Below, one piece after another: positions 5,851 through 30,619 of a stretch of 32,959 nt of DNA. A model generated the notes under the pieces. It saw nothing but the letters and a program-made list of their open reading frames with translations, was not told the origin of the DNA and did no database searches. Made by a program: the position numbers and the translations under genes. The stretch comes from Christensenellaceae bacterium (GTDB lineage Bacteria > Bacillota > Clostridia > Christensenellales > Borkfalkiaceae): assembly GCA_022768945.1 (NCBI GenBank), contig JALEKY010000029.1, forward strand, positions 1-32,959, given 5' to 3'. How positions within the stretch are numbered: the stretch's first letter is position 1; each line of letters opens with the position of its first letter.

Positions 5851-6840
5851 TTAAGCTAATTTGACTCTCGGGTCAACTACCGCGTACATTAAGTCGGAGA
5901 GCAAAACGCCCGTGACCGAAAGTACCGCGAGGAACATGTTATAAGTCATAATAACGGGGATATCGCCCATCTGCATCGCTTCGAGCGCGTATTTACCTAT
6001 ACCGGAGAGCTGGAAGACAGACTCGGTAATCATCGCGCCGGAGAAAAGCGACGGGATAAGCCCTGCAAGACCGGTTACGAGCGGGATAAGAGTGTTTCTG
6101 AAAGCGTGTTTGTAAATAACCTTTCTTTCGGAAAGACCTTTCGCTCTCGCCGTACGAATGTAATCGGAATTCAATACTTCGAGCATATTCGTTCTCGTCA
6201 TTCTCATTCTTCCGCCGATGCTGAGTATTACTACCGTGAGAACGGGCAGGAACATATGAGCTATGTAATCTCCGAGTTTTTCGAAAAGATTCGCATACGT
6301 TACGCCTGCGGTAAGCATACCTTCGGACGGGAACCAGCCGAGCTTGTCGGCAAAAATTCCTTTAAGTATCTGTCCGAAGAAGAACGACGGCAGAGAAATA
6401 CCGATAAGAACGAGCACTGTTACGAGGTAATCGCGGAAGGAGTACTGATGAGTTGCCGCGGTTATTCCGAGAGGGATAGCGATAAGAAACTCGAATATCG
6501 TAGCGATTGCAGCAACTACGAAAGAGGTACCCATTCTGTCCGCAGCGAAAATCTCTTTTATAACGGGGCGTTGGCTTTTGAAGCTGTTGCCGAAATCAAG
6601 ACGGCAAAGGTTTCCGAGCCAGCTGAAATAACCCTCGACTATGTTTCCGTTAAGACCGTAAGTCGCGTATAGCTGTTCTTTGAATTCGTCGCTGACGCTG
6701 TTGCCGCTCGCCGCGAGGTTGTTTATTTTTGTTTCAACGAAGTCTACCGGCATGCACCGCAACAACGTGTAAAGAATAAAAGATACTCCGAGTAACAACA
6801 GTATGGAAATCCCTATTCTTTTAAGAATGTATTTAAGCAT
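5851..6840 (-). CDS. oppB: Oligopeptide/dipeptide ABC transporter permease OppB
   Basis: A 329-residue permease of typical length. It opens with MLKYILKRIGISILLLLGVS, the standard OppB N-terminal helix, and has a periplasm-side segment with YGLNGNIVEGYFSWLGN and FGNSF. The EAA loop is near residue 236 (TARAKGLSERKVIYKHAFRN). It ends with VDPRVKLA, the usual family ending. The ATG follows CGGAG by 5 bases, a weaker site than those of its neighbours. The 100-base gap upstream holds a long hairpin, so its expression relative to the binding protein is probably adjusted there. Confidence 0.95.
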   Translation of the reverse strand: MLKYILKRIGISILLLLGVSFILYTLLRCMPVDFVETKINNLAASGNSVSDEFKEQLYATYGLNGNIVEGYFSWLGNLCRLDFGNSFKSQRPVIKEIFAADRMGTSFVVAAIATIFEFLIAIPLGITAATHQYSFRDYLVTVLVLIGISLPSFFFGQILKGIFADKLGWFPSEGMLTAGVTYANLFEKLGDYIAHMFLPVLTVVILSIGGRMRMTRTNMLEVLNSDYIRTARAKGLSERKVIYKHAFRNTLIPLVTGLAGLIPSLFSGAMITESVFQLSGIGKYALEAMQMGDIPVIMTYNMFLAVLSVTGVLLSDLMYAVVDPRVKLA

Positions 6841-6940: not shown

Positions 6941-9676
6941 TTATACGAGTTCGAGGTTCCACATTTCGTTAAGAGGCGAGCAGTACGAGTTAACTTCTTC
7001 ATAGTAGCCCTTAACGCTCTTTACGTTGTAAGCGTACAAAGTCGAACGCTGATAAACGGGAAGCTCTACGGCAAGTTCGAGAACCTCTTCCATAGCTTCT
7101 TCGTAAATCGCCTTTCTTTCTTCTCTGTCCATAATGGAACGGCCTTTTTCGATTAAGGTTTTAAGTTTGCCGTTTATAAGCTTGTAGTCCTCGCTCGTCG
7201 GATCCTGTTTGATTTCGGGATAGCCCCAAGCGCGTACGGAAGTTGCAGACGAGTTAACGTGGTATACCTGATACATATCGGGATCTACCGTAGAACCCCA
7301 AGCAGCCGCCCAAACCTGAAGCGAACCGGTGGAAAGCTTTGTAAGCGCCTGAGAGTCGGCTTTTACTTCAACGTTCCATTCGTAAGTGCCGTCCGGGCTG
7401 TCCGTCAATTCATTGAGGTTGTTGAGAACTTCGGCAGCCTGCTTGAATACGTCGTACGTGGGGTGTTCGGTTATCGAAGCGCCCGCTATCGTCATAGTAA
7501 TCTTGAAGTCGTTTTTGGTTGCGCCTTGCGATTTAGCCAAATCGGTATAATGCTTAACTATATCGATCGCGTCGTAATCCAACCCGGTGTTATCGTCTAC
7601 GTTCGACCAGCCGTTTGCGTAGTCCGTAGGACCAATGCTGAACGAGCCGTCCGGATTCTTAGGATAAGCCCAGCTTACCGTAGACATCGGCCAGTTAATC
7701 GGGTAACAAGTTTCGCCTATCTCGTTGTCGCTGTAATAATACTTGGAAGCGAGGTCGATATTCATTGCCGCCATTATGGCTTTACGGAGATTTCTGTTAG
7801 TAACTTTGCCCGCGTTGATACCGATATAACCGTAACCGAGCTGCAACGGGGTAGCTATTTTAATATCGCTTCCTAATTTCTTAAGGTCTTTAAAGTTCTT
7901 TTCGGTAAGTTGCGGCGTTATGTAGTCAACCTTGCCTTGCTTCAATACTTCGATTGCGCCGGAAGAGGTAACTACCTGCATGCACATTTTTTCATGCTTT
8001 ACTTCGAATTGGAAGTTTTTGTTAGCCTTGAAGTAAACGATACCGCTGTTCCAGAAAGCCATACCGCTCGGGTTGTCGTTATTGTTTGCGTCGGTTGCCG
8101 CGTAAACGCCCGCGCCCATAGGAACGGATACGTTCTTTTCGGACTGAATTACTTTGGACTGGAATTCGGAATCGCCCCATTTAACGCCGAACTTGTTGTT
8201 TTTAATATCGATTTCTTCGCCCTTGTCTCCGAGTTTTGCAGCCGTATAATAGTGAGCGGGAGCAACGGAGAAGCCGAAGTTGTAAATTGCCTTAGGATCG
8301 GGCTGTTCGAGGGTTATCTGAAGAACGTCGAAGTAAGCGTCGTTTGAGTTGTCCGTCAGACTGTCGTAAGTTTTATCTCCGTTTACCGGAACGCCCTTTT
8401 CGTTATGATTGTAAGCTATTTTGTATTCCTTGTCGTTAACGGTTACCGTAGCGGGGTTAGTAGCCTGCGCGAGGTGACCGAGAGAAACAACGCCGGAAAT
8501 ATTCTCGAATTTATTCGAACCTACGTTCTCTTTATTCTGCTGTAAAAGAATGGACTTAGCGTCCGCGGTAAACTTAGTATATAATACGGAAGCCGAAGCG
8601 CTGTAATTCAAAACTTCTCTGAACTTACCTTCCAATCCGTCTTCATAAACGAAATTTATAGCCGCTTCCTCTGTTTTATATGTTTTCAACAGATCTTCGC
8701 CTACAAACTTCTCGATTTTCGTCTTATCCTCTTTACCCTTGTTGTCCGCATATTCGGGGGTAATATAACCTTCGTAAAGGAAGAACGTAAAGAGGTTGTT
8801 TTTAAGTTTATCTGCCCATTCTTCGTAAGGAGCCGTTGTAATATCGAAAGCTTCCTTAGAAGATCTGTAGTCGTTGGTAAGTTCTTTTTTGTATTCCGTA
8901 GCAAGGAAGTTGTAGTCTTCTTTAACTTTATCGCGGAACCACTCGTCGTTATAGGTCGACGTATCTTTTGCGTTGGTTTCGCTTACGTATACTAATTTTT
9001 GATCCTCGGTCGGAGTCCATTCGTCGATTTTCGCGAAAACTTCTTCTTTTGTGGCACTGCTGATACGATCGGGATCGGAAGCGTCTTTCCTAGCCGCATC
9101 AACATAGAAATCTCTCAGAATACTTACTCTCTGGCTTGCGTACTGGCTTGCCGTGGTATTAAGGTTTTCTTCTACTTCTTCGGAATTTCCGTTCGTCTGA
9201 GTTCTGTATTCGTTAAGACCTTTGATTTTAATCGAATACATAGTGGAAGAACCGGTGTAAACGGGATCGAGATATTCGTAAATGTTGAACATTACGTCGT
9301 TCATCGTAAGGGGTTCGCCGTCCGAGAACTTCAAACCGTTTTTAATGACGAAAGTGTAAACGGGTTTGTCTCCCTCGGATATTTCGTAATCGAGAACAAC
9401 GCAAGCCTTATCCATACCGGCTTTTACGCTAACGCCGTCTTTATCGTTATAATCGGTGCTGAGCATTCCGATCTGAGTCATACCGACAACGTCCATATCC
9501 GTTCCGCTCGTAGCGTAGAACGGGCTGAACAAGCCGCTGAGCTCGTCCGTCATAATAACTATCGCGTCTTTTTTCTTTCCTCCGACATTGACTATTATTA
9601 TCGGCAGAGCGATAGCCAATATAAGCACTACGCTCACTACCGGAATAAGAATCTTCATCAGCTTTTTCTTCTTCAT
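6941..9676 (-). CDS. Oligopeptide ABC transporter substrate-binding protein (SBP_bac_5 family), membrane-anchored, enlarged
   Basis: A 911-residue binding protein that would present peptides to OppBC on the outer face of the membrane. Family motifs are FVIKNGLKFSDGEPLTMNDV near residue 110-130, RNLRKAIMAAMNID near 625-640, and AWGSTVDPDMYQVYH followed by the C-terminal lobe. The usual length is 520-620. The excess is mostly residues about 165-455, a lysine- and glutamate-rich segment. The N-terminus is basic with one hydrophobic helix (about 7-30) and no lipobox cysteine, so a signal anchor is likely rather than a lipid. The start chosen is ATG at 9676, 10 bases after AGGAGG. A TTG at 9682 in the same frame lies only 4 bases from that site. 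Four transporter genes follow. Confidence 0.93.
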   Translation of the reverse strand: MKKKKLMKILIPVVSVVLILAIALPIIIVNVGGKKKDAIVIMTDELSGLFSPFYATSGTDMDVVGMTQIGMLSTDYNDKDGVSVKAGMDKACVVLDYEISEGDKPVYTFVIKNGLKFSDGEPLTMNDVMFNIYEYLDPVYTGSSTMYSIKIKGLNEYRTQTNGNSEEVEENLNTTASQYASQRVSILRDFYVDAARKDASDPDRISSATKEEVFAKIDEWTPTEDQKLVYVSETNAKDTSTYNDEWFRDKVKEDYNFLATEYKKELTNDYRSSKEAFDITTAPYEEWADKLKNNLFTFFLYEGYITPEYADNKGKEDKTKIEKFVGEDLLKTYKTEEAAINFVYEDGLEGKFREVLNYSASASVLYTKFTADAKSILLQQNKENVGSNKFENISGVVSLGHLAQATNPATVTVNDKEYKIAYNHNEKGVPVNGDKTYDSLTDNSNDAYFDVLQITLEQPDPKAIYNFGFSVAPAHYYTAAKLGDKGEEIDIKNNKFGVKWGDSEFQSKVIQSEKNVSVPMGAGVYAATDANNNDNPSGMAFWNSGIVYFKANKNFQFEVKHEKMCMQVVTSSGAIEVLKQGKVDYITPQLTEKNFKDLKKLGSDIKIATPLQLGYGYIGINAGKVTNRNLRKAIMAAMNIDLASKYYYSDNEIGETCYPINWPMSTVSWAYPKNPDGSFSIGPTDYANGWSNVDDNTGLDYDAIDIVKHYTDLAKSQGATKNDFKITMTIAGASITEHPTYDVFKQAAEVLNNLNELTDSPDGTYEWNVEVKADSQALTKLSTGSLQVWAAAWGSTVDPDMYQVYHVNSSATSVRAWGYPEIKQDPTSEDYKLINGKLKTLIEKGRSIMDREERKAIYEEAMEEVLELAVELPVYQRSTLYAYNVKSVKGYYEEVNSYCSPLNEMWNLELV

Positions 9677-9732
9677 TATCAAACAGCCTCCTGTATTTTT
9701 TCGTGGTAATTAACTTTTAAAACGAGTTTGCC

Positions 9733-11412
9733 TTACGCTTTGGGGTACTCAAGGCTTTTTTCCAACTCTTTGCTTTCGGTACCGATGCTCCAATCGTAAG
9801 TGAAACCGTAGTTCTCGTTTACCGAAACAGTCCCCGTTTTTATGTTATATCTGTAAGTGTTGCCGACGTTTTTCGCGCCGCATACGTAAAGTTTTACTTC
9901 TCCTTTGGTAAGCCCGTCAAGGTCGCTGAGTCTTTCCGCGTTAGCGTACAAATTGAACGTAGCCGCGTTTGCGCCCGTAGTTACCGTTTCAGTTTCGCCG
10001 TTAAGACTGAAAGAGCCGGATACGGTTACGGAGGTAAGTTTAGCCCCCTCCGCCACAACGCCCGCGAACATTCCGTATTTGCCTTTACCTGCGGTCTTTG
10101 AGAGATATACGTTTACGTTATTAAAGTCAACGCCGTTGATTTCCGCGTTTGCGCCGAGTTTTCCGAACAAACCGCCGTTTTCGGTAGAGCTTACCGTTAC
10201 GTCTATTCCGTTAAACGTTACTCCGTCACCTTTAAGAGAGATTATCTTGCCGTTGAACTCGCCCGAAGTAAAAATAGTCGGCCAGCCGTTAGCTTTCGTA
10301 AACGTTAAGTCGTTTCTTACGTAGTAATTCGCGTTGAGCGAAGCGTTTTCGGTAAGTTGCTCGAGCGTATCGACGTAATAATCCTCGCCCGAGGTGGTCT
10401 TTACGTAAATCTTTTCAATGCCGTTTACCGCCGTTGCCGTTGCGAAATCGACCGAGCCGGAGTGAATTATTTTCTCGCTCGTAATCTCGTCGGTACAAGC
10501 TTCGTCTTTATATGCTTTGTAGAACGTGGTTCCTATCTTTTTGGAAATGGTTTGTTTTGCGTCGTTTTTGCTCGAATACACCATTCCGCCGGTCCTTTCG
10601 CCCGCCTCGTTGGTATTCCAGTAAGGGAGATATACTTCGTCTGCGTTTTCGTAGCCCTCTTTTCCGCCTTTTACCGAAACGTAATCGAAGCCGTTGCTCG
10701 TTCCGCCTTTAACCCACTTGGTTTCGCTTCCGGACGTTTCTTCGTAGTAGTACTCGAAAGTGAAATTCTTAAGCCACGCCGCGTAAAGAGTTATTTCAAA
10801 CTTGTTTGCGCCGTCTGTGTACTGAGTTTCGCCCGTTGCGCCGTTGTAAATACCGAGTTTCTTAGAGTTCCCCTCGTAAACGAGTTCGTCCTTATCGAAG
10901 TCCCAACGGTCGCTGTAAGTGTACAGCGGCGTGGAAGTCCTTTCTTTACCCGTAGCGTCGGCGTACGTTCCGTCCTCTTTTATCGTCTTAGCGATTACGT
11001 ATTCTTCGTCTGCATTCAGCGTAAGAAGGTTACCTGCCTCGTCAACGACGTATTCTACGTCTTCAACGATCTTCGTCACGGGCGTACGGGTTCTGTACCA
11101 ACCCGCGCAGAAATAACCGGAAACCGACGGCATAATATTCTGTTTGGAACGAAGAGGGCTGTCCATAGCGAGCAACTTGATGTGAATGCTTCCGTCCGCA
11201 CTCGTTTTGAGCGTTTCGGGATTGAACATATCTATATAAGATATACCCTTCTTCGTCGAAATTCTTCCGCCGTTAGGATTATACGTAACGGTTATGAAAT
11301 TGCCTTCGTCTCTCAGTTTGTCGTATTCCGTTTTGTCTTCGCACGAGGCGAAAGCAAAACAGATACATACAAAACATAAAAGCGACAGTACTTTAACGAC
11401 TAAACTTTTCAT
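9733..11412 (-). CDS. Lipoprotein with InlB-repeat-like and GLUG/beta-helix-like regions
   Basis: A 559-residue surface lipoprotein. The signal peptide ends in FAFASC, with the cysteine at about 24. Residues about 40-225 resemble InlB B-repeat (Listeria-Bacteroides) modules, with VTYNPNGGRIS at the start and LYAAWLKN at the end. Residues about 355-480 match the pattern of GLUG/beta-helix proteins: a DTLEQL segment, YYVRNDLTF, then GEFNGKIISLKGDGVTFNGI and GGLFGKLGANAEINGVDFNN. No catalytic residues were recognised. The ATG is one base after the stop codon of the protease gene, behind a weak AAGG, so translation is probably coupled to the protease. A binding or adhesion role is inference. Confidence 0.9.
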   Translation of the reverse strand: MKSLVVKVLSLLCFVCICFAFASCEDKTEYDKLRDEGNFITVTYNPNGGRISTKKGISYIDMFNPETLKTSADGSIHIKLLAMDSPLRSKQNIMPSVSGYFCAGWYRTRTPVTKIVEDVEYVVDEAGNLLTLNADEEYVIAKTIKEDGTYADATGKERTSTPLYTYSDRWDFDKDELVYEGNSKKLGIYNGATGETQYTDGANKFEITLYAAWLKNFTFEYYYEETSGSETKWVKGGTSNGFDYVSVKGGKEGYENADEVYLPYWNTNEAGERTGGMVYSSKNDAKQTISKKIGTTFYKAYKDEACTDEITSEKIIHSGSVDFATATAVNGIEKIYVKTTSGEDYYVDTLEQLTENASLNANYYVRNDLTFTKANGWPTIFTSGEFNGKIISLKGDGVTFNGIDVTVSSTENGGLFGKLGANAEINGVDFNNVNVYLSKTAGKGKYGMFAGVVAEGAKLTSVTVSGSFSLNGETETVTTGANAATFNLYANAERLSDLDGLTKGEVKLYVCGAKNVGNTYRYNIKTGTVSVNENYGFTYDWSIGTESKELEKSLEYPKA

Positions 11413-11413
11413 T

Positions 11414-14400
11414 TTATTCGTTTACCTTATTATTGTTTTTCTTCTTTAAAACGCAGCATACCGCTGCCGCCGCTCCGGCAAGTACTACTACTCCGCCTAC
11501 GGATATGAGCACTATGGCAAGTACGTTTGATTGAGTTTCTTCGCTCGAAGACGACGAACCGGAAGAACTGTCTCTCGCTTTGAGAGTCTTAATCATCGAT
11601 TCTGCTTTTTCGAGTACCGAAATATTCGATACAAGCGCCTGCTGCTCTATCGAGGGAAGCGCGGCGTATGCCTTTCTTGCGGCTACTACGGCTTCTTCGT
11701 CGGCAAGAGATATTCTCTTATCGAGCGCGGCAATCAAGCCTATTACTTTGAGGGTGTCCTGAGAAGCCGCCGTGTGTCCGTTCACTACCGTGTCGAAGTA
11801 TTGACCGAAGATAAACGTGTCGTAATTCTTGCCGTTTTGCGGCTTGATCATTACGAGTCCGTCTTTTACCTTACCTACGTAGTTAACGAAGTTCGCGCCG
11901 AAATAGAAGTTGTTGTATCTGCTTGTAACGTTCCACATATAGAACGGAGCGATGCCGAGACCTTCGTATACGACGGAGTTGTTTGCAATAACGCCCGTGT
12001 AAGGCAAGTTAGTGAAAGACAGATACGACGTGTCGTACGCTTCTTCGAGTATCGGAGCTTCGAGACTCAGGAAGGTTACGGTCGAAAGATTATTGCATTC
12101 GTAGAACGCTTTATCGCCTATCGCGGAAAGGGTGGAAGCAAGTACCAAGCTGTACAATCCCGAACCGGTGAATGCGTTAGCGGAAATTCTTACCGTTCCC
12201 TCTTCTACAGTGTAAGTAGTTTCTTCGCTGTTCTTCGGGTAGGAAACAAGAACTTTTCCGTTTGTTACCGTTTTGTAAAGAACGCCTTCCGAAACGTATA
12301 CGCTGTCGGAAATCGAATAGCTGTCTTCGAACGTGTTAACCGTGCCGTTGCCGAACGCGACTTCCACAATTCTTCCGAACGAGTCGATATCGCAGTCGTA
12401 GAACGGGTTTTCGCCTATTTCCGTAAGCTTATCCCCGAACGTGACGGACGTTACGTTCGTCTTTGCGAACGCGAAATCCCCGACCTTTTCGGCGTTTGTA
12501 AGCGCGAGGGAGGAAATCTGCGTTCTCATAAACGCATAGTCGCCTATGGAAACCGCGCTTTCGAGATTCTCTACGGTAGCAAGCTTATTGCAGTTTGCAA
12601 ACGCGGCGTCACCGATAATCGAATCGTCCGCAAGTTTAACGCTTGTCAAAGGAGCCCTCGTAAACGCGTACGAACCGACGTTCGCGGTGTTTGCGAGATC
12701 GAGCGTTTGCATCGAAGTGAACGCGAACGCGTAAGAGCCTATACCGATGACGTTTGTAAAGTCTGCCGCAGACAGCTTGGTGCTGTATGCGAACGTGTAT
12801 GCGGGAATATAATTCTGCTCGAAAGTTTCTATGCCGTCTTCCGTTTCGCTTACCTTTCCGGTGAAGTTCGAGGGGAGCGTTACGTTTGCAAGTTTTTCGG
12901 TGAACGCGAATACGCCCATACCGAGTTTAACGCCATCCGCAAGGTTGGATTCGGTTATGCCGGAAGCGAGCGAAGAGTAAAGGTAATCTGTTGCGACGAG
13001 TTCGCCGTTTACGATTTCCCATTTATAAGCGTAACCGTAACGGCTCTCTCTCTTGGAATATACTCTCGTTCTTATTCCGGAGAAAGCATAATCACCTATC
13101 GATTTTACCTTACTTAGGTCGATTTTGTCAAGGTTTTTACAGGTAGAAAACGCATAATCTCCGATTTTTGCCCCGCCACCGAGGTTAACTTCTTTAAGAT
13201 TTGCGTTATAGAGGAACGCGTAGTCGCCTATTTCGACGTTTTCGCCCATCGTTACCTGCGCAAGGTTGGAGTTAGTTCCGTTTTCAACCTGATAGTAGAG
13301 ATAGTAGAAAACGTTCTCGTTGCCGTCGGCGTCTTTAACGATTACTTTCTCTTCTTTGTAGTATCTCGTGTCCTCGAAAACTCTTGTGTTCTGTACGTTT
13401 TCGAATGTGTTGAGCGACATCGTGCATGCAAATGCATGGCTACCGATTTTTGCGTCGTTGCCTATCGTGAGGCTTGTGAGGTTCGTGCACTGAACGAACG
13501 CGTAGTCGCCTATTACAAGACCGTCGCCGTAAACAGAAAGGTCGAGAGTCTGAAGTTTGCTTGCAAAAGCAAACGCGTAATCGCCTATCGTTTTAAGAGC
13601 GTAATCTCCGCCGTTCGCGTTGAATACCGGGAACGCTTCGAGATTGCTGGAAGCGAACGCGTATGCGCCTATTTCGGAAACGTTGCCGAATTCCGCTTTG
13701 GAAACCGTGCTGTTATAGAACGCGTAATCGCCTATTTCTGTTACGCCCTTAGCGGTAACTTTAGATATTCTCTTTACTCCGCTGAACGCACCGTTGCCTA
13801 TCTTTGTTACCGTTTCGGGAAGAGTTAAGTCGGTAGTAGCTTTGTAGCGGGGTACCAATACGACTTCCGTTTTGTCTTTGCTGTAAAGGATGCCGTTGTC
13901 CGAAGTAATGTTCGGGTTCTTTGCGTCTACTTTGATTTCGGTAAGTCTGTCGCAGTTTGCAAAAGCGTTTTCGCCTATTACCGCAACGTCTTTGCCTAAT
14001 ACGATCGTTTTAATATTATCGCAACCCGTGAACAGGTTTGCCGAAACTACGGGAGCGTTAAGTTTGATTTCTTCAAGCGAAGTACAGCCGTAGAACGCGC
14101 CTACGCCCGCTTTAATCTTAGTTGCGCTTATTTCGGCGGTAAGCATATTCTTGTTGCCGCTGAACGAGCCGATACCTATCGACTGCGCCGTCTTGGGAAG
14201 CGTAAGATTGCCGATATTGCAGTTCATAAACGAATAATCGCCTATCGCGACTACGCCGCTCAAATCGATACTGCTGAGCTTCGTACAATTTTTAAACGCG
14301 TCTTTATTTATAAATCTGATAGCGGTTTTGCCGCTTGCGTCTTTTGCAAACGTTACTCTTTCAAGACTCGTACAACCTTCGAAAGCGCCCACGCCGATGT

Positions 14401-17400
14401 TGATACCCTTTTCGTTTTCCTCGAATACGACTTCTTTAAGAGCGGTAAGCCCCGCGAAAGCGTACTGCTGAATATCGGTTACTCCTTTAGGAATAATTAC
14501 TTTCGTTATCGTGTTTTCACCGATATACACGGGCTTGATATAGTAAGGATCTTCTTTGTCTATAACGTCGCCCGCGGACAAATCTTTTTCCACGTATTCG
14601 TAGTTGGAGAACGCATACTGATATATCGTGGTAATACCCTTGTTACCGGGAATTGTAACCTCTCCGCCCAAGCCCTTATAGCTCATAAGGTAAATGCTTT
14701 GAGTGGTGAACGGTTCCTTAACGGTAATGTTGATTTGCTTCTGATATGAGGTAGCGTACTCTCTGTCGTTGACGGGATCGTAATATCTTACTCTAAACGT
14801 AACGCTCGTGCTGCCCTTCTTTACCGCCTCTATTTCGTCGCCGTTTTCGCCGGTAATTACTACGTTGTCACCGAGCGCGCTGATAGTCACTCTCGTTCTT
14901 TCGGGGAAGTAAGATTCGAGGAGGTAATTTATCTTTACTCTTTCGGACGGATACATCGAAAGACTGTAAGTCGAACTCGTTCCGCTGAATTCGTACGAAC
15001 CGCCGGTAATGCCGATTTCTCTTTCGTCGCTGCTGAGAGCGTAATACGCTTTAATCGTATCGTATCCCTGAAGCTCGAACTTGTTGGCTTCTTTTACGGT
15101 CAACTTTCTGTAACCTTCTTCGTCCTCCGCGTAAACGTGAACGTTAAGCGAAGCCTCGAAGCGACTTCCGTCTTCGTCGTAACCGACAGCCTTGAGTACC
15201 GCGTCTCCGCTCGCTTTAGCAACTACTATGTTGTTAACTACGGAGATGACTTCGTTTCCGTCCGGATTGGTTACTTCGTAATTCAAAGCCTGTACCCAGC
15301 TTTCGTCGGGATACGTGGAGAGAATTCTCGCAAGGTCTTTGGTTTCGTTTATGTTGAGCGAAAGAGTTTCAATCGGATTTTCCGGTTTGTCTTCCTCGTG
15401 GAAGTACATCGAAACGATTTCGTCCGGAAGTTTAAGCTCGTAGGTAGCGGCGTTCATCGCGTAGTCGTAAACGTTAACGACGAACGTGTTGCTGTTTTCG
15501 ATAACGTAGCTTTGACCGTCTTCCCTATACCCTATGCCGACCGAATTCTTGATTTGCTGAACGTAGTCTGTAAGATTTATCGTTACAGTCGTCGTCGAAT
15601 TGTACGAAGAGTATATAGGAGTCATATACTGACCGAACATCGAAAGCGAGTAGGTATACTGCGGATCGGTGCTTCTTGCGATCATACCCGGTTGCAAAGC
15701 CATCGCATAATGGTTGTCGTATACGGACAAATCTGCGTAAAGCGTGGTCTTCTTGGTGCTTTCGTCATATTCGGAACGATAGACGACGTCGGATATAACC
15801 GGAGCTTCGAAGTCAACGTAGAACGGGAATTCGAATACGTTTCTCTCATTGTTCTGAGAAGCGAACTCGCCGTTTGCGCCTTCGTCGATATATGTTTCGA
15901 GCCTTACGGTGTATTTTGTGTTATTCTTTAAATCCTGTTCGAGAACGGAGAAGTCCACGTCGAAACTCGAAGCGCGTATAGATCCGCCGTTATTGAACGA
16001 TTTACGCTGATTGTGATAGGTCTTGCTCCAAACCACTTCGCCGGTCGAGTCCTCGGTAATCATAAGATAAGCGGTTTTTACGTTTCTTAAAAGTCCCGCG
16101 TTTATCGAATTGATACCTTTTACGGTGTAGTTCGAAGTGTTGCTCGTAGCTTCCTGATTGGAAAGAGCAATATGGTCCTTGCTTGCCGCGATTACGGGCA
16201 TGGACGGGTTCTGAATGAAGTAGTAATTTCCGAGTGTGGAAATATAATCGCTGTAAAGAGAACCGATTACCCTCGTAGCGTATGCGTCCGGCATAAGCTT
16301 ATCGTCCTGGCTGATGCCTGCGTTAAGCTCGTCTTTATTGGTGTCGTAATATTCTTCGTCGAAGATAGGAGCTTTCGTCCAATCGCCGTAGAAGCCGAGG
16401 AACGGAACGCTGAGATCGGATTTCGTCTTATCCTCGTTGCCGGGTTTGTTAAGGGTTATGAAGCCCTCGATATACATACCGTTTTCGAACGATTCGTCGA
16501 GATACTGCTTGTCTGCGTCCGAAAGAGTAATTTTTACGGTTACCGTAGCGGTTTTGCCTTTTTCTACGGTTACGCGGTTACCGGTTACGCTGCCGTTTTC
16601 GACCTTCGTTACGGTAACGGACTTTTCGCCGCCTTCGAGAGTGTAGCCGTCCTGAGTTACCGTTCTCTCTCCGCGCTTGGTGTAAGTGGTGCTTACGCCC
16701 TCGGTATTAACGATTGCGTTTACGTCGTAAGTGACGCTCTGTTTGTCAAGAGCCGTGATACCGAAAGTCATCTCATAGACGCCGATTTTTTCCTTATCGT
16801 CGCCTATTTCGAGCTTTGTGGTACTCATAAGCTTGGTCTTATCGAGTTCCTTACCGTTTTTGTCGTAAGTAACGAGATAAGCTTCGGTGTTTGTCGCTTT
16901 GGTTATGTTTACAAGACCTGCGCCCTGCTTTCTTACCGCGTAAGCAACGCCGTTCTTGTTCATGATAATATCCGCGGTGGACATCATCAAACGGTTTACT
17001 ATAGCCGTTATTTCCGTAGGCGTGGAACCTGCTGGAGCTACTTCGTCTTTAACGTACTGACGAATGAGAGCGGTTACGCCCGAAACGTTCGGAGCCGCCA
17101 TCGAAGTACCCGAAAGACTGTCGTATTCCTGACCGGGAACAGCCGAGTAAATCTCGCCGCCGTGACCGGTTATTTCGGGTTTGATTTTAAGGTCGGAGGT
17201 CGGTCCCCAGCTGGAGAAGTCGGACATAAACGGTCCCGCTTCCTGCGATTTGGAAATGCGGATTATACCTTCCGACTGAGCGGCGAGAATTTCGCCGTCG
17301 TCCTGCGTGAGCGAACATACCGCGCCCATATTGTTTCCGACGGACATCGAAATCGAACCGGAAACGTTGTTGTAAATGATTATACCGAGACAGCCTTGTT

Positions 17401-19006
17401 CGAAAGCCGTTCTTACTTTATCTTCAAAGGTCGTTACGCCGCGCCTTACAAGCGCGATTTTGCCTTTGTAATATTCTTTTTCGTGTATTTTGTAATAAGA
17501 AGCTTCGCCGTTACCGCCGATCGTTACGTATGAGAAATCGTAGCTGTCGTAAGTAGTTCCGTCGAGTTCTCCCCTTGCCGTAAGAATTTCGTTAACGAAG
17601 TCCTTATCGACGTTATCAGCGGTGCTCGCCTCGTTGAAGTAAATAATGTCGTCGTTATACATCAGGTAGGGAGTCATAACGCCGTCTACCGAAGCTATGG
17701 ACAACGCGCCCTCGTAAGTGGAAGGCGAACCTACGGTACCGGAATCCGGGTTGGAAGTAAGACCGTTGCTACCGTTCTTTTCCGAGTTCATCGTAGCGTT
17801 GTAGCTGTTTGCAGCGGAAGCGATGAGCGAAATGCCGGCATCCTTTACCTTGTCGTAAATTTCGGCAACGTTCTTTTCGTCTTCTTCTCTCGTGAAGCCG
17901 CAGCCCGAGCCGAGGGACATATTGATAACGTCTACGCCTATGTTCACGCAGTCTTCGAGCGCCGCTATAAGCCAGGAAGTTTTAGCGCCGTCCTGCGCGT
18001 CTGAGAAAACTTTCATTATCGCGAGCTGCGCGCCGGTAGCTACGCCGGTGATAACGTCGTCTTCGCCGGCTATAATACCTGCAACGTGCGTGCCGTGTTC
18101 GGAGTTAATCGGGAAAACGTCAGAGTCCTTATCCGCATAGTCGTACGTATAAGGTACTTTTCTGTTTACGTATACGTCCGACGCGGTAAGGCCTTTGGTG
18201 GTTTTAGCCGCGCTGAGCTTTTTGCCGGACATATTGAAAAGGTCGGTTTTCGTTCCGTCTTCGGAGTACTTGTACAGTCTTCCGTTTTCGCGTTTGAGAA
18301 GGTCGCCGTCGTTTGCGTCTTCGGACGCCGCGAATGCGGTATGCGTGTAATCTAGACCGGTATCGAGAATAGCGACTATAACGCCTTCGCCTGTATAAGA
18401 AGTGGTATTGGTGAAAATACCCGTGTTCTTATCGACGTCGACCGTGTTTATGACTTTCTGATATTTACTCTCTTCGTACACTTCACCGACGATTGCGGTA
18501 GCCTGATTCTGTTTGAGCAAATCTTCTACGTCGTAGAAGTCTTTAGCCTTTACGGTAATCTCGAAACCGCTGACGACGTTGTCGTAAGTTTCCCCCATTT
18601 TGTAGGAAATACCCGACTTATCGAGCTTGCGCGTAAGAATTTTTCTTTCCGTTTCGGCTTTGTTTTTTATCGCCTGAGCTTCCGCGCCGTAAGCGTATTC
18701 GCTGACGTCGTTATATCCCGTAGAAGCGAGGTATCCGTCTACAACCCCGTCGGTCTTCATCGAAACGATTACGGAAATTTCCGTGTCATCTTCAACCGAA
18801 TCGGGAAGCGCGGAAACCGCCGTGCCGTCGAAATACGTACCGAGGTCGTTTTGAAGGCTTTCTTTAAGCTTTGTGATCGCGGCGAGCGGCGAAACGTTGC
18901 TTGCGCTTACTCCGCCGGTAAAGTCCCCGGATAAAATTCCGAGGCTAACCGAAATCATTATCAAAACGGATAATAATCTAATAAATAATTTCTTTTTCTT
19001 TGTCAT
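11414..19006 (-). CDS. Giant cell-surface subtilisin-like serine protease (S8) with LRR_5 repeats and C-terminal membrane anchor
   Basis: A 2530-residue secreted protease. A signal peptide (about 1-35) and a propeptide of the inhibitor I9 type (about 75-180) come first. The catalytic Asp is D215 (AILDTGLDY), His H304 (EHGTHVAG) and Ser S635 (SGTSMAAP), with the oxyanion Asn at about 400 (SAAN). A protease-associated domain lies inside the catalytic domain (about 455-580), as in lactocepin and C5a peptidase. Fn3-like domains follow (VDFEAPVISDV near 1065), then a BIG2-like domain (about 1210-1300). About 28 BspA-type LRR_5 repeats with IGDYAF-type cores cover about 1455-2310. Near the end are a short helical module (AARKAYAALPSIEQQALV), a Ser-rich linker and a membrane helix (about 2495-2519) with a basic tail. 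There is no LPXTG. All catalytic residues are intact. The ribosome site (AGTAGGA) is weak. Confidence 0.95.
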   Translation of the reverse strand: MTKKKKLFIRLLSVLIMISVSLGILSGDFTGGVSASNVSPLAAITKLKESLQNDLGTYFDGTAVSALPDSVEDDTEISVIVSMKTDGVVDGYLASTGYNDVSEYAYGAEAQAIKNKAETERKILTRKLDKSGISYKMGETYDNVVSGFEITVKAKDFYDVEDLLKQNQATAIVGEVYEESKYQKVINTVDVDKNTGIFTNTTSYTGEGVIVAILDTGLDYTHTAFAASEDANDGDLLKRENGRLYKYSEDGTKTDLFNMSGKKLSAAKTTKGLTASDVYVNRKVPYTYDYADKDSDVFPINSEHGTHVAGIIAGEDDVITGVATGAQLAIMKVFSDAQDGAKTSWLIAALEDCVNIGVDVINMSLGSGCGFTREEDEKNVAEIYDKVKDAGISLIASAANSYNATMNSEKNGSNGLTSNPDSGTVGSPSTYEGALSIASVDGVMTPYLMYNDDIIYFNEASTADNVDKDFVNEILTARGELDGTTYDSYDFSYVTIGGNGEASYYKIHEKEYYKGKIALVRRGVTTFEDKVRTAFEQGCLGIIIYNNVSGSISMSVGNNMGAVCSLTQDDGEILAAQSEGIIRISKSQEAGPFMSDFSSWGPTSDLKIKPEITGHGGEIYSAVPGQEYDSLSGTSMAAPNVSGVTALIRQYVKDEVAPAGSTPTEITAIVNRLMMSTADIIMNKNGVAYAVRKQGAGLVNITKATNTEAYLVTYDKNGKELDKTKLMSTTKLEIGDDKEKIGVYEMTFGITALDKQSVTYDVNAIVNTEGVSTTYTKRGERTVTQDGYTLEGGEKSVTVTKVENGSVTGNRVTVEKGKTATVTVKITLSDADKQYLDESFENGMYIEGFITLNKPGNEDKTKSDLSVPFLGFYGDWTKAPIFDEEYYDTNKDELNAGISQDDKLMPDAYATRVIGSLYSDYISTLGNYYFIQNPSMPVIAASKDHIALSNQEATSNTSNYTVKGINSINAGLLRNVKTAYLMITEDSTGEVVWSKTYHNQRKSFNNGGSIRASSFDVDFSVLEQDLKNNTKYTVRLETYIDEGANGEFASQNNERNVFEFPFYVDFEAPVISDVVYRSEYDESTKKTTLYADLSVYDNHYAMALQPGMIARSTDPQYTYSLSMFGQYMTPIYSSYNSTTTVTINLTDYVQQIKNSVGIGYREDGQSYVIENSNTFVVNVYDYAMNAATYELKLPDEIVSMYFHEEDKPENPIETLSLNINETKDLARILSTYPDESWVQALNYEVTNPDGNEVISVVNNIVVAKASGDAVLKAVGYDEDGSRFEASLNVHVYAEDEEGYRKLTVKEANKFELQGYDTIKAYYALSSDEREIGITGGSYEFSGTSSTYSLSMYPSERVKINYLLESYFPERTRVTISALGDNVVITGENGDEIEAVKKGSTSVTFRVRYYDPVNDREYATSYQKQINITVKEPFTTQSIYLMSYKGLGGEVTIPGNKGITTIYQYAFSNYEYVEKDLSAGDVIDKEDPYYIKPVYIGENTITKVIIPKGVTDIQQYAFAGLTALKEVVFEENEKGINIGVGAFEGCTSLERVTFAKDASGKTAIRFINKDAFKNCTKLSSIDLSGVVAIGDYSFMNCNIGNLTLPKTAQSIGIGSFSGNKNMLTAEISATKIKAGVGAFYGCTSLEEIKLNAPVVSANLFTGCDNIKTIVLGKDVAVIGENAFANCDRLTEIKVDAKNPNITSDNGILYSKDKTEVVLVPRYKATTDLTLPETVTKIGNGAFSGVKRISKVTAKGVTEIGDYAFYNSTVSKAEFGNVSEIGAYAFASSNLEAFPVFNANGGDYALKTIGDYAFAFASKLQTLDLSVYGDGLVIGDYAFVQCTNLTSLTIGNDAKIGSHAFACTMSLNTFENVQNTRVFEDTRYYKEEKVIVKDADGNENVFYYLYYQVENGTNSNLAQVTMGENVEIGDYAFLYNANLKEVNLGGGAKIGDYAFSTCKNLDKIDLSKVKSIGDYAFSGIRTRVYSKRESRYGYAYKWEIVNGELVATDYLYSSLASGITESNLADGVKLGMGVFAFTEKLANVTLPSNFTGKVSETEDGIETFEQNYIPAYTFAYSTKLSAADFTNVIGIGSYAFAFTSMQTLDLANTANVGSYAFTRAPLTSVKLADDSIIGDAAFANCNKLATVENLESAVSIGDYAFMRTQISSLALTNAEKVGDFAFAKTNVTSVTFGDKLTEIGENPFYDCDIDSFGRIVEVAFGNGTVNTFEDSYSISDSVYVSEGVLYKTVTNGKVLVSYPKNSEETTYTVEEGTVRISANAFTGSGLYSLVLASTLSAIGDKAFYECNNLSTVTFLSLEAPILEEAYDTSYLSFTNLPYTGVIANNSVVYEGLGIAPFYMWNVTSRYNNFYFGANFVNYVGKVKDGLVMIKPQNGKNYDTFIFGQYFDTVVNGHTAASQDTLKVIGLIAALDKRISLADEEAVVAARKAYAALPSIEQQALVSNISVLEKAESMIKTLKARDSSSGSSSSSEETQSNVLAIVLISVGGVVVLAGAAAAVCCVLKKKNNNKVNE

Positions 19007-19057: not shown

Positions 19058-22000
19058 TTAGTTTAACTGGGTAAACTTGCCTTCATTTACGGTGAACCTG
19101 ATTGCCGCGGTATTGCCGTTAAGTTCCCATGCGATCGTGTAAACGCCGGTTTCCGCGTCGTAAGTGCTGGAGGCTACGAGATAAGCCGAGCCGCCGTCGA
19201 ACGCGTAAACGATTACGTTGTGGTCTTTATCGATTTCAACGTATCTGCCCGCGGAAGTGCCCTGTCCGTTTGCGTCGTAATAAACGTTCATTTCCTTCGT
19301 TTCGAACGAAACTAATTCGTAAGCTTTAACGTATGTAACGGTACCGGAGGAGCTTGTAACGGGGTACTGAACGGAGCCTTCGTCGTCCGCAAGGTGAATT
19401 ACATAATGCGTGGAAGTAAGTATTTTTCCGTCTTCCCCTCTCGTTCTCGCTATAAACGCGTATTTAACGCCCGTTTCGCCCTCGGCAAGTTCGGGAGCGT
19501 AATATACTTCCGTTTTGATTTCGGTATCGACGCCGCCCTTCGTGGAGTAAATGGTTACGGTATTGAACAAGTCGCCCGCTTTAAATCTCGAATCCGCAAC
19601 AAGCGTTCTTTCGATGACGAGTTTTATGTCCGCTCCCTCGATAACCTCGGTTTGGACTCTCGTAAACGCGTTCATCGTGTAACCGACGGCGTTCGAGTAA
19701 GTCGCGCCGAACGAGAAGTTCATTCTGTAATCGACTCCGTCCTTACCTGTGATTCCGATCGTGTAGTAAGAGCCGTTGTAAGTGTAATCGGAAGCGTTTT
19801 CGAAGCTGAGGTTGTTACCTTCGGCGTCGGCATATTTCGTTCCGCTGCCGAACTTGCCGGAAGCGGCTTTATTTACGACTTCGCCGTTTTCGTCCAACGT
19901 TTCGATTACGCTCATTTCACCGTAAGCTTCTTCGTTTTCTTCTATAAACGCGGTAGCGTCCATACCGAACATCTGCATGTAAACAGCCGTATTGATAACG
20001 TACGCCGATTTACCGCTCTTAACCATTCTCGCGCCCTGAACGGAGAACGTAGCCTTGCCGTCGCCGTTGGTCTGCGCAGCGAACGAAAGATCGAGGTCGA
20101 ACTCGAAGTAGCCTATTCTCAAATAGGTTGCGGTCTTTTCGGTGTAATCCGTTTCGGTGGTGTCGTCGGGGAGCGTTACGCCGTCTTTGACCTTTACGGT
20201 CTTTCTGACAACGGTAGCCGATACCGATTGTTCTTTCTTGGAGGTATCCGTTTCGTCTCTGTTCGACAACGTAACCGTAGCGGTTACTTCGAACGTCTTG
20301 CCTGTAGGTCTGAACGAGAAGTCTTTTACGTCATAGAGAACTTTGCCCTCGTTGTATCTGAACGGGTACTTGTTCTGCTCGTCCGCATTTCTCGTAGCGA
20401 CGAGGTTTCTTCCCTCGTATTTTATATACTGCTTGGAGTTAAGCTCGATTGTGCTGCCGAACCCGTACGTGCCCTTGTTTACGAAGCCGTATGCGTTTGC
20501 GGAGCTGTCCGAAGGATCCTGTTTGAAGAGCGTTACCGTTTCGCTTCCTTCGTTATATTCGAAGAAGTAGTTGCTTTCGCCCTCTATCTGAGCGATGCCG
20601 TAAGGAGTGAAGAACAACGATTCGAACTCTTCGGTGAAGTAGCTGACGCCTGCCGCGGCAATGCCCGCTTCCTGATATGCTACCGTATGGTTTACTCTGT
20701 CGTACTTATAAACGCCTACGCCGCTCGAAGAGCCGTCGGACGTCATAAAGAACAGAATGCTGTCGCTTATAAGCGTGTAGTAGCCCGTTTTAGCCGTTCC
20801 CTTTTCTCCGAAGAATACCGCGTTGCCCGCGCTGTCGAGAACGAGTACGTTAAACGAATCCGCTTCGACGTAAGTTTCCGCCATTTCTTCGTGAATTATA
20901 GCGAATACGGGAATTGTGTTGTTCCCGCTCTTTACGGTACCGAGCATACCTTCGTACGTGATTTCTGCCGCACCGTCGTTAAACGTAAGCACAACCTTGC
21001 CTGTTTCCGAGTTTAAGGTGTATGTAGCCGAATCGGAAATAGTCTTTCTTTTAGCAGTTCCCTTTTCGTAAACGACGTTGCCGTTTTCGTCCGTTTCGTA
21101 TACGAATACGGTCGCGGTGCCAACGCCGTTATTGATATCGCCGTTGAGCGTTACCCAGTAACCCTTTTTTGAAGCCTGGTTTTCTATTACGTAGTAAGTG
21201 CCGTATTCTATTCCTTTAACGACAAGTCTGTCGCCGTCTACGACAAAGTAATAGTTTCTGTTGTTTCCGTAGAACGTTATTTCGTCGCCGAGTTTTCTGT
21301 AAATACCGGTGGATTCGTTACCCTCTTCGTCCGTATACGTAGCGACGAGGTATCCGTCGAGCACGAGTTTTTCAAGCGTGCTGCCCGTTTCGTACGTTGC
21401 GCCGCTTTCTTCCGCTCTATAGAAAATCGCGAAGTAGTAATTGTTGAGTATTATACGAGCGAACTTGATTTCCTTATGAGAATTCTCTTCGCCCATATAT
21501 TCGTTCGTTTCGAAAATATATACGGGGTACTGATTGTTGCCCGCGGTAAGTTTTTCGGTAGTAACTTCTCTGTACGTTCCTTTGAACGTGTATTCGACGT
21601 AATTGCCCTTTGCGTCCTTTTCGTACTGACCGTCAATCTCTTTGAGATAATGGTAGGTCGCGCCGCCCATTCCGTCGAACTCGATATAGAAATACTGGTT
21701 AGCCGAACCGTATCTTTCCATTACGTACGCGCCGAACGGTCTGGAAGCTGCGGTAAACGTGCCTTTTTCTTCGTTAAGTACGCAGTAATAATACGTGCTG
21801 CCCGCTATCGTGGTGAGCTTAGTCTTTTCGTCCGTGCTTACCGAACCTACGATTCTCGTCGAACCGACCGTAACTATCGCTACGGCTCCGTCTATTATCT
21901 GAATCGTTCCGCCCGTTTCGGTATCCGTATTTGTGTATTTCTTCATATTCTCGATCTTTTCGGTATCGAGAGTGTAGCTGTACCAATAAGCGACTGCCTT

Positions 22001-24364
22001 GCTCGAAACGGAAGCTTCGTCATAAACGACCGATTTAAGCTTTTCGAAGTCGAACGAGAACGGAACGCCGGTTATTTCGCCGTCTGCCGCGTTGTAACCC
22101 GTAAGAGTCAATTCGTACAGGTTGTCCGCGTTCAACGCGTAAGTACCGTAGTTGATTTTTTCGTAAACGGTGAAAGAAGTTTCACCGACCGTCTTTGTAA
22201 CTTTTACGTAAATAGCGGCTTCGCCCTTTTCGTTTTCGTTGAGAACGATTACGAGGTTGGAGTTTACTGCCGTTCTGTTTCTGCTGTCTTTACCGTAGTA
22301 AGAACGTTCGGTATAATCGACGTTCTTTACGTCGAGATAATACTTGGTAATCTGTACTGCCGTGGGCTTTCCGTCTACAATGTCAATCTTTGTTTCCGTC
22401 TTAACGCTTATGATAAGCGAAGCTTCGAGCGAGCTTGAGGAAAACTTAACGATCGTTCCGCCGAATACGACCGAAGTGCCGGAAACGGTGTAAGTACCTT
22501 CAGTGGTTTTGCCGTTCTCGTCAGTGTATTCTGCTTTATATACGCCGTCCGTCTTAAGCGAGCCTTTTCCGTCTTCGAAGGAGAAAGTCGCGTCGAGAGA
22601 CGAGTTGTACGCTACGAAGCCCTTGGAGCCGTCGGTCGCGTCGAGAAGTTTGAACGTGCCTATGCTCTGACCTGCGCTCGATTGGAGCGTTAAAATTTCA
22701 TTTTGTATCGAATAATAAACGTAAGAAGTCGAGCCGCCGCTGTAGAACAAGCCCATACCGAAACCGGAAAGAAGCAATCTTGTGGGAGAGCTCGTTTGTT
22801 CGGACGAAACGAGCTGTCCGTTGTAAGCATAATAATAATGCATTACGCCGTAACCCGCTTCTTCTTCGTTTCTGAGCTGGAATGCCGAACGATTGCTTGC
22901 CGTACCTATATTGAAAGTAATCGTTTTTCCGTTCAGTTCTCCGTCCGTAAACGTAGCTACGTAATATCCGTTTTCGTTTACTTCGTAAGTGCCGTGAGAA
23001 GTCTTTTCGCTGATAATCGCGCCGTTTTCGTCCTTGAAATAGTACGTTACTTCGTTGTATTTGCCGAACTGCATTATTTCGCTTTCGTCAAATCCGACGC
23101 CGGAAACGAACTTGGTGGGAGCATATTGGCTTCTCACCGAGCTGCTGTACGCGAAATACAGGTCGCCTTCGAAAATCTTTCCTTCTTCGAGTATGCCTTT
23201 TTCGGTTTCGATAAGGAATATGCGTTCGCCCTCGTCTTCTTCCAAAGTACATTCAAAGAAGACGTCCCCTCTCTGTACGTAAACTTTGTTGTCCTTCGTA
23301 AGGAAAAGCGTATCGTATCCGCCGTACATATCGGGGATACCCTTGGACCATACCGCTCTGAGGTCGGTATTCTGATCTAAATCTATTTTAACGATTTCCG
23401 CGGAAGCGCCGATTTTCTGAGTTTCGGGATCGAAAAGCTTTTCGGAAACGGAGTTAACCGTATAAATTACGTCGTTTTCGACGTCCCTCCAACCGGAAAG
23501 CATATATCCGCTGCAAACGAAGTCCTTAACAGGCAATTCTAATTTCGCACCGAACAAAACGTCCTTGGTTACGATTTTCTCGGTAAGACTCGATTCGGGA
23601 TATTCCGAGAAAAATCTTACTTTCAGAGTTCTTCTGTCGTAATATACTTTGAATACGTTTTCGGAAGCGTTTTCGGAAATAACCGCTTCGGTCTTCTGAT
23701 CGTCGTGAGTAGCTTCGGAAACGTAGAAACCTGCAAATACGTGGTTTTCGGTAACGTCGAAATCGGTTCCCGCAAACGCGTATCCGGTAACTACTTCGGG
23801 AGCTTCGTAATCGCCCGCTTTACCGTCGTCGGTAATTCCCTGTTTGAGTATATTGACCTCGTACTTAACCTTATACTTTGCCGTAAGCGTTACTCCGCTC
23901 GCGCTCGCCGTAAGATTTTTGGAAAGTTCTTTTCCGTTTACCGTCCAGTAAGCGAACTGATTGTCCGTTTTTGTCGGTATCAAATCTTTAACCGCCTGAT
24001 AAACGTTATCGCCCTCTTTTACTTTAACGGAAGTAGCGGAAACGCTCCCGCCGTTTGCGTTAAGCGTGATTGTGGCTACGTTTGCCCATTTCGCATAAAC
24101 GGTAACGTCCGCCGCGGGTTCTATTGAGGTAATCGCGCTGCCGGTTAACTCTTTGTTGAGATACCAGCCGTCGAATATACAATTCTCTTTTACCGCTTCG
24201 GGCAGAACGTAAGTTTCGTTCTCTTTGACTTTTACCGCAGCTATCGCCTGACCGCCGTTCGTTTCGAACGAAACGTTGTAAGATTTAGTGCATGCGGTAA
24301 GCGAGAATATCGACATACATGCAAGCACTGCCAGCGCGAAAACAATTATTGTCCTTTTTTTCAT
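19058..24364 (-). CDS. Giant lipoprotein with InlB B-repeat-like domains and many degenerate beta-rich repeats
   Basis: A 1768-residue lipoprotein with canonical lipobox LTAC (cysteine at about 25). Residues about 28-105, 95-170 and 245-340 are InlB B-repeat-like: VSFETNGGQAIAAV, FDGWYLNKELTGS, VYAKW; ITLNANGGSVSATSV; LRAVWSKG. The remainder is a long run of degenerate modules of about 50-100 residues. Each has a core like LVLDGYLVATYTDEEGN, then G-x-Y and a further pair of strands; examples are IEFDGMGGATYHY, LVLDSAGNAVFFGEKG and YKAEYTDENGKTTEGTY. I do not recognise a named family for these. No catalytic motif was seen. It is the first gene after the promoter at 24459-24488, and the ATG follows TTGGAG by 9 bases. 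The protease gene starts 51 bases downstream. Confidence 0.92.
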   Translation of the reverse strand: MKKRTIIVFALAVLACMSIFSLTACTKSYNVSFETNGGQAIAAVKVKENETYVLPEAVKENCIFDGWYLNKELTGSAITSIEPAADVTVYAKWANVATITLNANGGSVSATSVKVKEGDNVYQAVKDLIPTKTDNQFAYWTVNGKELSKNLTASASGVTLTAKYKVKYEVNILKQGITDDGKAGDYEAPEVVTGYAFAGTDFDVTENHVFAGFYVSEATHDDQKTEAVISENASENVFKVYYDRRTLKVRFFSEYPESSLTEKIVTKDVLFGAKLELPVKDFVCSGYMLSGWRDVENDVIYTVNSVSEKLFDPETQKIGASAEIVKIDLDQNTDLRAVWSKGIPDMYGGYDTLFLTKDNKVYVQRGDVFFECTLEEDEGERIFLIETEKGILEEGKIFEGDLYFAYSSSVRSQYAPTKFVSGVGFDESEIMQFGKYNEVTYYFKDENGAIISEKTSHGTYEVNENGYYVATFTDGELNGKTITFNIGTASNRSAFQLRNEEEAGYGVMHYYYAYNGQLVSSEQTSSPTRLLLSGFGMGLFYSGGSTSYVYYSIQNEILTLQSSAGQSIGTFKLLDATDGSKGFVAYNSSLDATFSFEDGKGSLKTDGVYKAEYTDENGKTTEGTYTVSGTSVVFGGTIVKFSSSSLEASLIISVKTETKIDIVDGKPTAVQITKYYLDVKNVDYTERSYYGKDSRNRTAVNSNLVIVLNENEKGEAAIYVKVTKTVGETSFTVYEKINYGTYALNADNLYELTLTGYNAADGEITGVPFSFDFEKLKSVVYDEASVSSKAVAYWYSYTLDTEKIENMKKYTNTDTETGGTIQIIDGAVAIVTVGSTRIVGSVSTDEKTKLTTIAGSTYYYCVLNEEKGTFTAASRPFGAYVMERYGSANQYFYIEFDGMGGATYHYLKEIDGQYEKDAKGNYVEYTFKGTYREVTTEKLTAGNNQYPVYIFETNEYMGEENSHKEIKFARIILNNYYFAIFYRAEESGATYETGSTLEKLVLDGYLVATYTDEEGNESTGIYRKLGDEITFYGNNRNYYFVVDGDRLVVKGIEYGTYYVIENQASKKGYWVTLNGDINNGVGTATVFVYETDENGNVVYEKGTAKRKTISDSATYTLNSETGKVVLTFNDGAAEITYEGMLGTVKSGNNTIPVFAIIHEEMAETYVEADSFNVLVLDSAGNAVFFGEKGTAKTGYYTLISDSILFFMTSDGSSSGVGVYKYDRVNHTVAYQEAGIAAAGVSYFTEEFESLFFTPYGIAQIEGESNYFFEYNEGSETVTLFKQDPSDSSANAYGFVNKGTYGFGSTIELNSKQYIKYEGRNLVATRNADEQNKYPFRYNEGKVLYDVKDFSFRPTGKTFEVTATVTLSNRDETDTSKKEQSVSATVVRKTVKVKDGVTLPDDTTETDYTEKTATYLRIGYFEFDLDLSFAAQTNGDGKATFSVQGARMVKSGKSAYVINTAVYMQMFGMDATAFIEENEEAYGEMSVIETLDENGEVVNKAASGKFGSGTKYADAEGNNLSFENASDYTYNGSYYTIGITGKDGVDYRMNFSFGATYSNAVGYTMNAFTRVQTEVIEGADIKLVIERTLVADSRFKAGDLFNTVTIYSTKGGVDTEIKTEVYYAPELAEGETGVKYAFIARTRGEDGKILTSTHYVIHLADDEGSVQYPVTSSSGTVTYVKAYELVSFETKEMNVYYDANGQGTSAGRYVEIDKDHNVIVYAFDGGSAYLVASSTYDAETGVYTIAWELNGNTAAIRFTVNEGKFTQLN

Positions 24365-24387
24365 TTCGCATTCTCCAATATAAGGTT

Positions 24388-24418
24388 TATTCGAAAGAAT
24401 TGTATATTTTTTCGAATA
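24388..24418 (-). promoter_or_regulatory. Inverted repeat in the leader of the protease/opp operon
   Basis: TATTCGAA (24388-24395) and TTCGAATA (24411-24418) are perfect 8-base arms with a 15-base spacer. The repeat lies in the untranslated leader between the promoter and the ribosome site of the 1768-residue lipoprotein gene. It could be an operator or an RNA stem. The symmetry is seen directly; the function is inference. Confidence 0.4.
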
Positions 24419-24458
24419 GATGAATATTTATTCATAATCCGTAAAAATACATTCTTTT

Positions 24459-24488
24459 ATTTTATCATTTTTGTTATTATTCCGTCAA
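24459..24488 (-). promoter_or_regulatory. Promoter of the surface-protease/opp gene cluster
   Basis: TTGACG (24488-24483), an 18-base spacer and TAAAAT (24464-24459) on the minus strand lie in AT-rich sequence. Each hexamer differs from consensus at one base. The predicted start near 24452 gives a leader of about 88 bases. It is the only convincing promoter seen for the eight genes down to oppF. Confidence 0.65.
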
Positions 24489-24724
24489 GTAAATACAACT
24501 TGCGTCATGGTTTACCCGAGCCGTTTTTCTACCCGGCTATCGGTTTTAATCGATTAAAAACGTCAGGTTGGTTGTGTTTTTATGCTTTCGTATTCGAATT
24601 CATTACACTCAAAATCATTTTATATACGAAAAGCTGACCGCACTCTGTATCGTATTATCATTTTTCGTCCCATTTTTCTTCTCCTGATATTCATTTATTA
24701 TAGTCAAACTGATAAAACTGAATT

Positions 24725-27688: not shown

Positions 27689-27740
27689 TTTAACTCCGTT
27701 TTTCAGTGTAACTGTACTGTCGATTTCCTAAAAAAAGAAA

Positions 27741-30608: not shown

Positions 30609-30619
30609 TTACTCCTCCT

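Follow-up and report, generated by a model that had tools for sequence, protein, structure and literature searches.

The window, which is the whole contig C14 (32,959 nucleotides) of a 1.66-Mb genome in 76 contigs that is 79.6% complete, encodes a protein in which a subtilisin-like (S8) protease and an array of BspA-type leucine-rich repeats (LRRs) are joined in one chain that ends in a membrane helix. The gene lies in one run with a lipoprotein gene (lp559) and the genes of an oligopeptide importer (oppABCDF). Judged from sequence and gene neighbourhood, the protein is most likely a membrane-tethered cell-envelope proteinase that would degrade extracellular protein and thereby supply its own importer with peptides, in the manner of lactocepin and Opp. 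Every part is of a known kind; what appears new is an LRR array and a membrane helix replacing LPXTG or SlpA attachment, in a fixed gene run with Opp. No description of an LRR_5–S8 fusion with a fixed Opp run was found in the literature searched, outside which most subscription journals lie.

Domain architecture of the S8-LRR protease

The gene is one intact open frame of 2,530 amino acids with an ATG start, and its features are given below.

11414..19006, minus strand: S8-LRR protease gene; single open frame, Pfam matches, 84 near-full-length homologs aligned
18902..19006, minus strand: putative secretion signal, residues ~1–35; Lys-rich start, hydrophobic stretch, ASA-like site
18476..18781, minus strand: probable I9-like propeptide, residues ~76–177
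16916..18391, minus strand: Peptidase_S8, residues 206–697; Pfam E 2.7e-47
17333..17491, minus strand: PA insert, residues 506–558; Pfam 8.9e-11
16397..16777, minus strand: fn3_5, residues 744–870; Pfam 4e-11
14687..16354, minus strand: Fn/Ig-like tail with a Big_2-type domain, residues 885–1440; family-specific region
12047..14689, minus strand: 28 BspA-type LRR units, residues ~1440–2320
11687..12049, minus strand: conserved post-LRR region, residues ~2320–2440; invariant alignment columns, 127 ± 8 residues long in the 84 homologs
11447..11524, minus strand: C-terminal membrane helix, residues ~2495–2520, followed by a Lys/Asn-rich tail

Homologs came from two sources. Near-full-length homologs were present in more than a dozen of 61 related genomes (31–53% identity over the whole alignment), and a scan of the named genome collection returned 519 relatives, the best 80 of which were analysed. 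Among the 84 near-full-length proteins, at least five are one contig present in two collections (e.g., G024:C4 and L061), leaving ~79 distinct proteins. A simple pattern found an N-terminal lipobox in four of the 84. Homologs at L049:429–7962, L081 and L092 are split into two frames and represent either assembly frameshifts or decaying genes.

The initial annotation had described a subtilisin-like protease with about 28 BspA-type repeats in one chain, and this was borne out by the single frame, by Pfam matches to both S8 and LRR_5, and by a count of 28 units. The S8 catalytic residues D215, H304, N400 (the oxyanion Asn) and S635 are invariant in all 84 homologs. Two features of cell-envelope proteinases were detected with Pfam, a PA insert inside S8, which most members possess, and an fn3_5 domain directly after S8. 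The proposed layout of the catalytic half therefore stands for S8, the PA insert and fn3_5; its I9 propeptide is held less firmly. Pfam I9 gave no match in the window protein and weak matches in 5 of 15 homologs (best E 0.0014), and residues ~76–177 of the predicted model follow the order β-α-β-β-α-β expected of an I9 propeptide. Big_2 was likewise undetected by Pfam in the window protein itself, though it is present in 14 of 15 homologs. The same layout had omitted the ~550-residue Fn/Ig-like tail preceding the repeats and the conserved region after them.

Structure prediction gave low confidence for the catalytic half (mean pLDDT 62.7), and the assignment of this half thus rests on sequence homology. 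C5a peptidase is the best solved relative by sequence (1.8e-56). C5a peptidase (ScpA/ScpB) and chemokine protease C are the closest solved structures both by sequence and by fold, as Foldseek with the low-confidence model returned C5a peptidase and ScpC-type entries over ~950–1020 columns at TM 0.35–0.43, which may hint at further Fn2/Fn3 domains. The best plasmid matches, to Lactococcus PrtP, show 28% identity over residues 102–1079. By homology, the catalytic half belongs to the lactocepin/C5a peptidase group of S8. The best NCBIfam model, NF040553 (SGO_0316/SGO_0317 LPXTG-anchored serine peptidase), aligned over residues 51–893 with 225.7 bits against a cut-off of 1400. The whole protein lacks LPXTG and therefore falls outside the LPXTG-anchored families. 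One S8 match only was found in the protein's own, incomplete genome.

The LRR half consists of tandem LRR_5 repeats (E 1.5e-104), with 28 units on A–F anchors at residues 1466–2301; a loose automatic pattern gives 24. The array was modelled as a solenoid (mean pLDDT 84), and Foldseek matched it to the LRR proteins 4gt6, 4cp6 and 4h09. In repeat type and solenoid fold it resembles BspA-type LRR surface proteins (LRR_5; HupY/LrrG; 4gt6, 4h09, 4fs7, PcpA 4cp6), but those records carry no description as proteases, whereas in the present protein an enzyme bears the array as its C-terminal arm. Two further giant LRR_5 proteins are encoded in the same genome (L050:9781–17751, 2,656 aa; L052:3189–13301, 3,370 aa), and the S8 domain is absent from both.

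A gene run with an oligopeptide importer

The initial annotation did not mention the genes next to the protease. The protease gene is followed on the same strand by lp559, oppA, oppB, oppC, oppD and oppF, with gaps of 1 bp to lp559 and then 50 bp to oppA.

24459..24488, minus strand: promoter-like site TTGACG-18-TAAAAT with TG before it, upstream of lp1768; candidate transcript start by consensus match
19058..24364, minus strand: lp1768, lipoprotein carrying InlB-type Flg_new repeats; 51-bp gap to the protease gene downstream
9733..11412, minus strand: lp559, lipoprotein with lipobox FASC; no domain above the Pfam cut-off
6941..9682, minus strand: OppA-type binding protein; an insertion of ~290 aa interrupts SBP_bac_5
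5851..6840, minus strand: OppB permease; profile matches
4706..5836, minus strand: OppC permease; Opp4C best (E 4.4e-94), below its cut-off
3346..4692, minus strand: OppD ATPase; profile matches
2245..3345, minus strand: OppF ATPase; PRK11308 (dipeptide ATPase) passes its cut-off

The feature set of an Opp/Dpp importer is present (SBP_bac_5, two BPD permeases and two ATPases with oligo_HPY), and, as in OppABCDF/AppA importers, all five components occur in order. NCBIfam scores point to the Opp/Dpp group; the OppA, OppB, OppC and OppD models fall below their cut-offs and OppF alone passes one. When an OppA profile was compared with solved proteins, AppA (1xoc) matched best and other peptide-binding proteins also matched; the OppA sequence on its own had no match in the PDB. 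Unlike typical OppA, the protein has 913 aa with the ~290-aa insertion, and the window copy carries an N-terminal membrane helix instead of a lipobox, at the place where the alignment consensus of its relatives has Cys. A second SBP (an 834-aa frame) on contig C17 has a smaller insertion.

The linkage is constant. All 67 named relatives with enough sequence have oppA behind the protease and in the same orientation; the remaining 13 of the 80 named loci end at a contig edge within 932 bases of the protease end. Median gaps in these loci are 22 bp from protease to lp559 and 26 bp on to OppA. Three other genomes (G004, G023 and G018) have the reversed order, opp first, with the linkage kept, and it also holds in G054, from another family. 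The upstream neighbour lp1768 adjoins the protease mainly in the closer relatives of the window.

Protease and lp559 form one protein of 2,922–2,994 aa in five loci (L096, L102, L116, L131 and L134). The join consists of a helix, a charged or Ala/Pro-rich linker and a second helix, a predicted topology that would keep the protease and lp559 parts both on the outer face. On a tree of the catalytic region, which includes the broken genes L081 and L092 on artefactual long branches, four changes are required to explain the fused state, and strong branches force at least three of these. The fusion thus arose or was lost repeatedly, a classical sign of cooperating partners.

Several other genes and sites were observed around the run. 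Behind oppF (~2160–2240), a hairpin and a T-run are followed by a perfect TTGACA-17-TATAAT promoter-like site, which precedes a lipoprotein-like VWA gene (765–2126). At the oppF end of the run, several relatives encode a small Lys-rich protein of ~90–105 aa whose N-terminal part bears a Y-x-D-D-like motif (L030:2541–2855, L032:3474–3764, L040:10127–10423 and L043:18435–18710); it was not found in the window. Upstream, a module at 19058–32683 of the window contains BatA/VWA, VWA, an LRR_5 protein (987 aa) and the Flg_new lipoprotein (1768 aa), and the same module occurs a second time in this genome, on contig C46 of G000 (L050:19051 to L051:11649), there without protease or opp.

Probable membrane anchor and LRR arm

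The initial annotation had proposed that the chain ends in a membrane helix in place of an LPXTG signal, and the homologs agree with it. A hydrophobic 19-mer forming the C-terminal helix is present in 83 of 84, LPXTG is found in none of the 84 within the last 150 residues, and inspection of the C-terminus of the window protein revealed no LPXTG-like motif. Across 25 genomes of the family, the protein's own and 24 more, no sortase was detected, while in other families of the order 9 of the 16 genomes have one. Because LPXTG is absent, the helix is conserved and sortase was undetected in the family, the helix is most likely the anchor of this lineage rather than a degraded sorting signal. The arrangement shows how so large a cell-envelope proteinase can be kept at the cell in a sortase-independent manner.

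The LRR arm would most likely form a rigid stalk through the wall and may also hold protein substrates, which is the least certain part of our proposal. The array length is nearly fixed in the 84 homologs (820 ± 32 residues), and mean column identity is 34% in the array versus 47% in the catalytic part. This near-constant length, kept while the sequence diverges more than that of the catalytic part, favours a pure stalk, in which the solenoid would only span the wall and set the distance between protease and membrane like the H and W regions of lactocepin. The array also occupies the position of the lactocepin spacer regions (PMC10535647), with the enzyme on one side and the membrane helix on the other. 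However, a constant length suits a binding scaffold equally well, and an LRR solenoid exceeds what a spacer requires; we consider the pure stalk a tenable possibility, somewhat short of an even chance.

The array could instead, in line with the binding arm suggested in the initial annotation, capture one particular host or dietary protein and hold it for the protease, much as C5a peptidase acts on a single target. The likeness of the array to BspA-type surface proteins and to the model of the adhesin HupY/LrrG speaks for such binding, as does the catalytic half, whose nearest relatives are C5a peptidase and chemokine protease C, but the resemblance to C5a peptidase lies in the part shared by lactocepins. 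Moreover, the Opp linkage in every testable relative fits bulk nutrition better, and the relatives are MAGs whose record titles name a wide range of hosts, among them deer, sheep, cattle and goat, with no sign of a single host target. Dedicated target binding is accordingly somewhat unlikely.

A further idea is that the LRR arm, lp559 and the enlarged OppA make up one surface machine, in which the protease would be docked to the importer and peptides handed over directly, with no diffusion; the recurring lp559 fusion would then be a trace of the docked assembly. The conserved linkage indicates functional association, not direct hand-over of peptides, and we regard docking as unlikely. Stalk, binding scaffold and docking are compatible with one another, and sequence does not separate them. 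Because the array here belongs to an enzyme whose output can be measured, it makes the function of BspA-type repeats testable.

Proposed function and distribution in Christensenellales

In the proposed pathway of the tethered proteinase, the propeptide would be removed outside the cell, and the presumed enzyme would then cut proteins near the cell surface. The resulting oligopeptides, the presumed ligands of OppA, would be captured by it and imported by OppBCDF, with lp559 acting as an outer-face partner of the protease; the genes may share a common transcript. The constant linkage to OppABCDF argues for nutrition, in which protein is turned into peptides for import, and less for an attack on a single host factor. 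OppA-like proteins can also bind non-peptide ligands, which counts against the peptide-import reading.

Compared with known systems, the protein shares the propeptide–S8/PA–Fn layout of lactocepin (PrtP), the propeptide being probable here. The peptides that surface proteinases of the PrtP type release in lactic acid bacteria enter the cell through Opp (PMC8037685). For attachment, lactocepins carry a terminal LPXTG or SlpA region or have no such region (PMC10535647), whereas this protein has 28 LRRs and a membrane helix at its C-terminal end. The gene table of plasmid pLP712, which is incomplete, shows no opp gene near prtP; unlike there, protease and opp form one gene run here. The protein also differs from streptococcal C5a peptidase in its peptide-import context. 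Streptococcal C5a peptidase and chemokine protease C are cell-wall-anchored and are not known to have LRRs.

The protease might also serve in processing or signalling, maturing surface proteins of its own cell or making a peptide signal that Opp imports. Several large lipoproteins and VWA proteins are among its neighbours, and Opp importers in other Firmicutes take up signal peptides. Yet no signal-peptide or regulator gene was seen adjoining opp, and the protease–opp core persists where the lp1768 and VWA neighbours are missing, making this role very unlikely.

The best 80 of the 519 relatives are gut MAGs titled Clostridia, Oscillospiraceae, Christensenella and similar. Candidatus Borkfalkia faecipullorum, placed by NCBI in Christensenellales, is one of the named relatives, and judged by these the order is Christensenellales. 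A probe for the family (region 885–1500, which covers the Fn/Ig-like tail) had matches in 91 of 396 genomes sampled from the order, spread over 26 genera and several families. In a class-wide sample, three genomes outside the order matched it, weakly and partially. At nine loci of S8 relatives in other orders, neither the LRR part (by BLAST) nor an adjacent Opp set was present; four of these, scanned with Pfam, have FIVAR, Big_2 or CHB_HEX tails. Within the sample searched, LRR fusion and Opp linkage thus coincide and are confined to this order. The idea that the architecture is common across Clostridia was rejected for the same sample, given the three weak partial matches outside the order and the nine S8 relatives without LRR or Opp. 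A plasmid origin was also rejected, as plasmid matches cover the catalytic half only and none reaches 80% of the protein. An assembly error joining a protease gene to an adhesin gene, conceivable in a fragmented assembly with error-prone repeats, is ruled out by 84 near-full-length homologs from many assemblies that share the one-chain architecture and the catalytic residues.

The reduced-genome Christensenellales family UBA1242 has been reported to lack secreted proteases and peptide transporters (PMC12306168). The protease studied here belongs to a family seen in 91 of the 396 Christensenellales genomes sampled. Bacteria of this order are common in the gut, and most of what is known of them comes from assembled genomes. 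If our proposal is true, a protease with its own peptide importer would explain how many of them acquire amino nitrogen.
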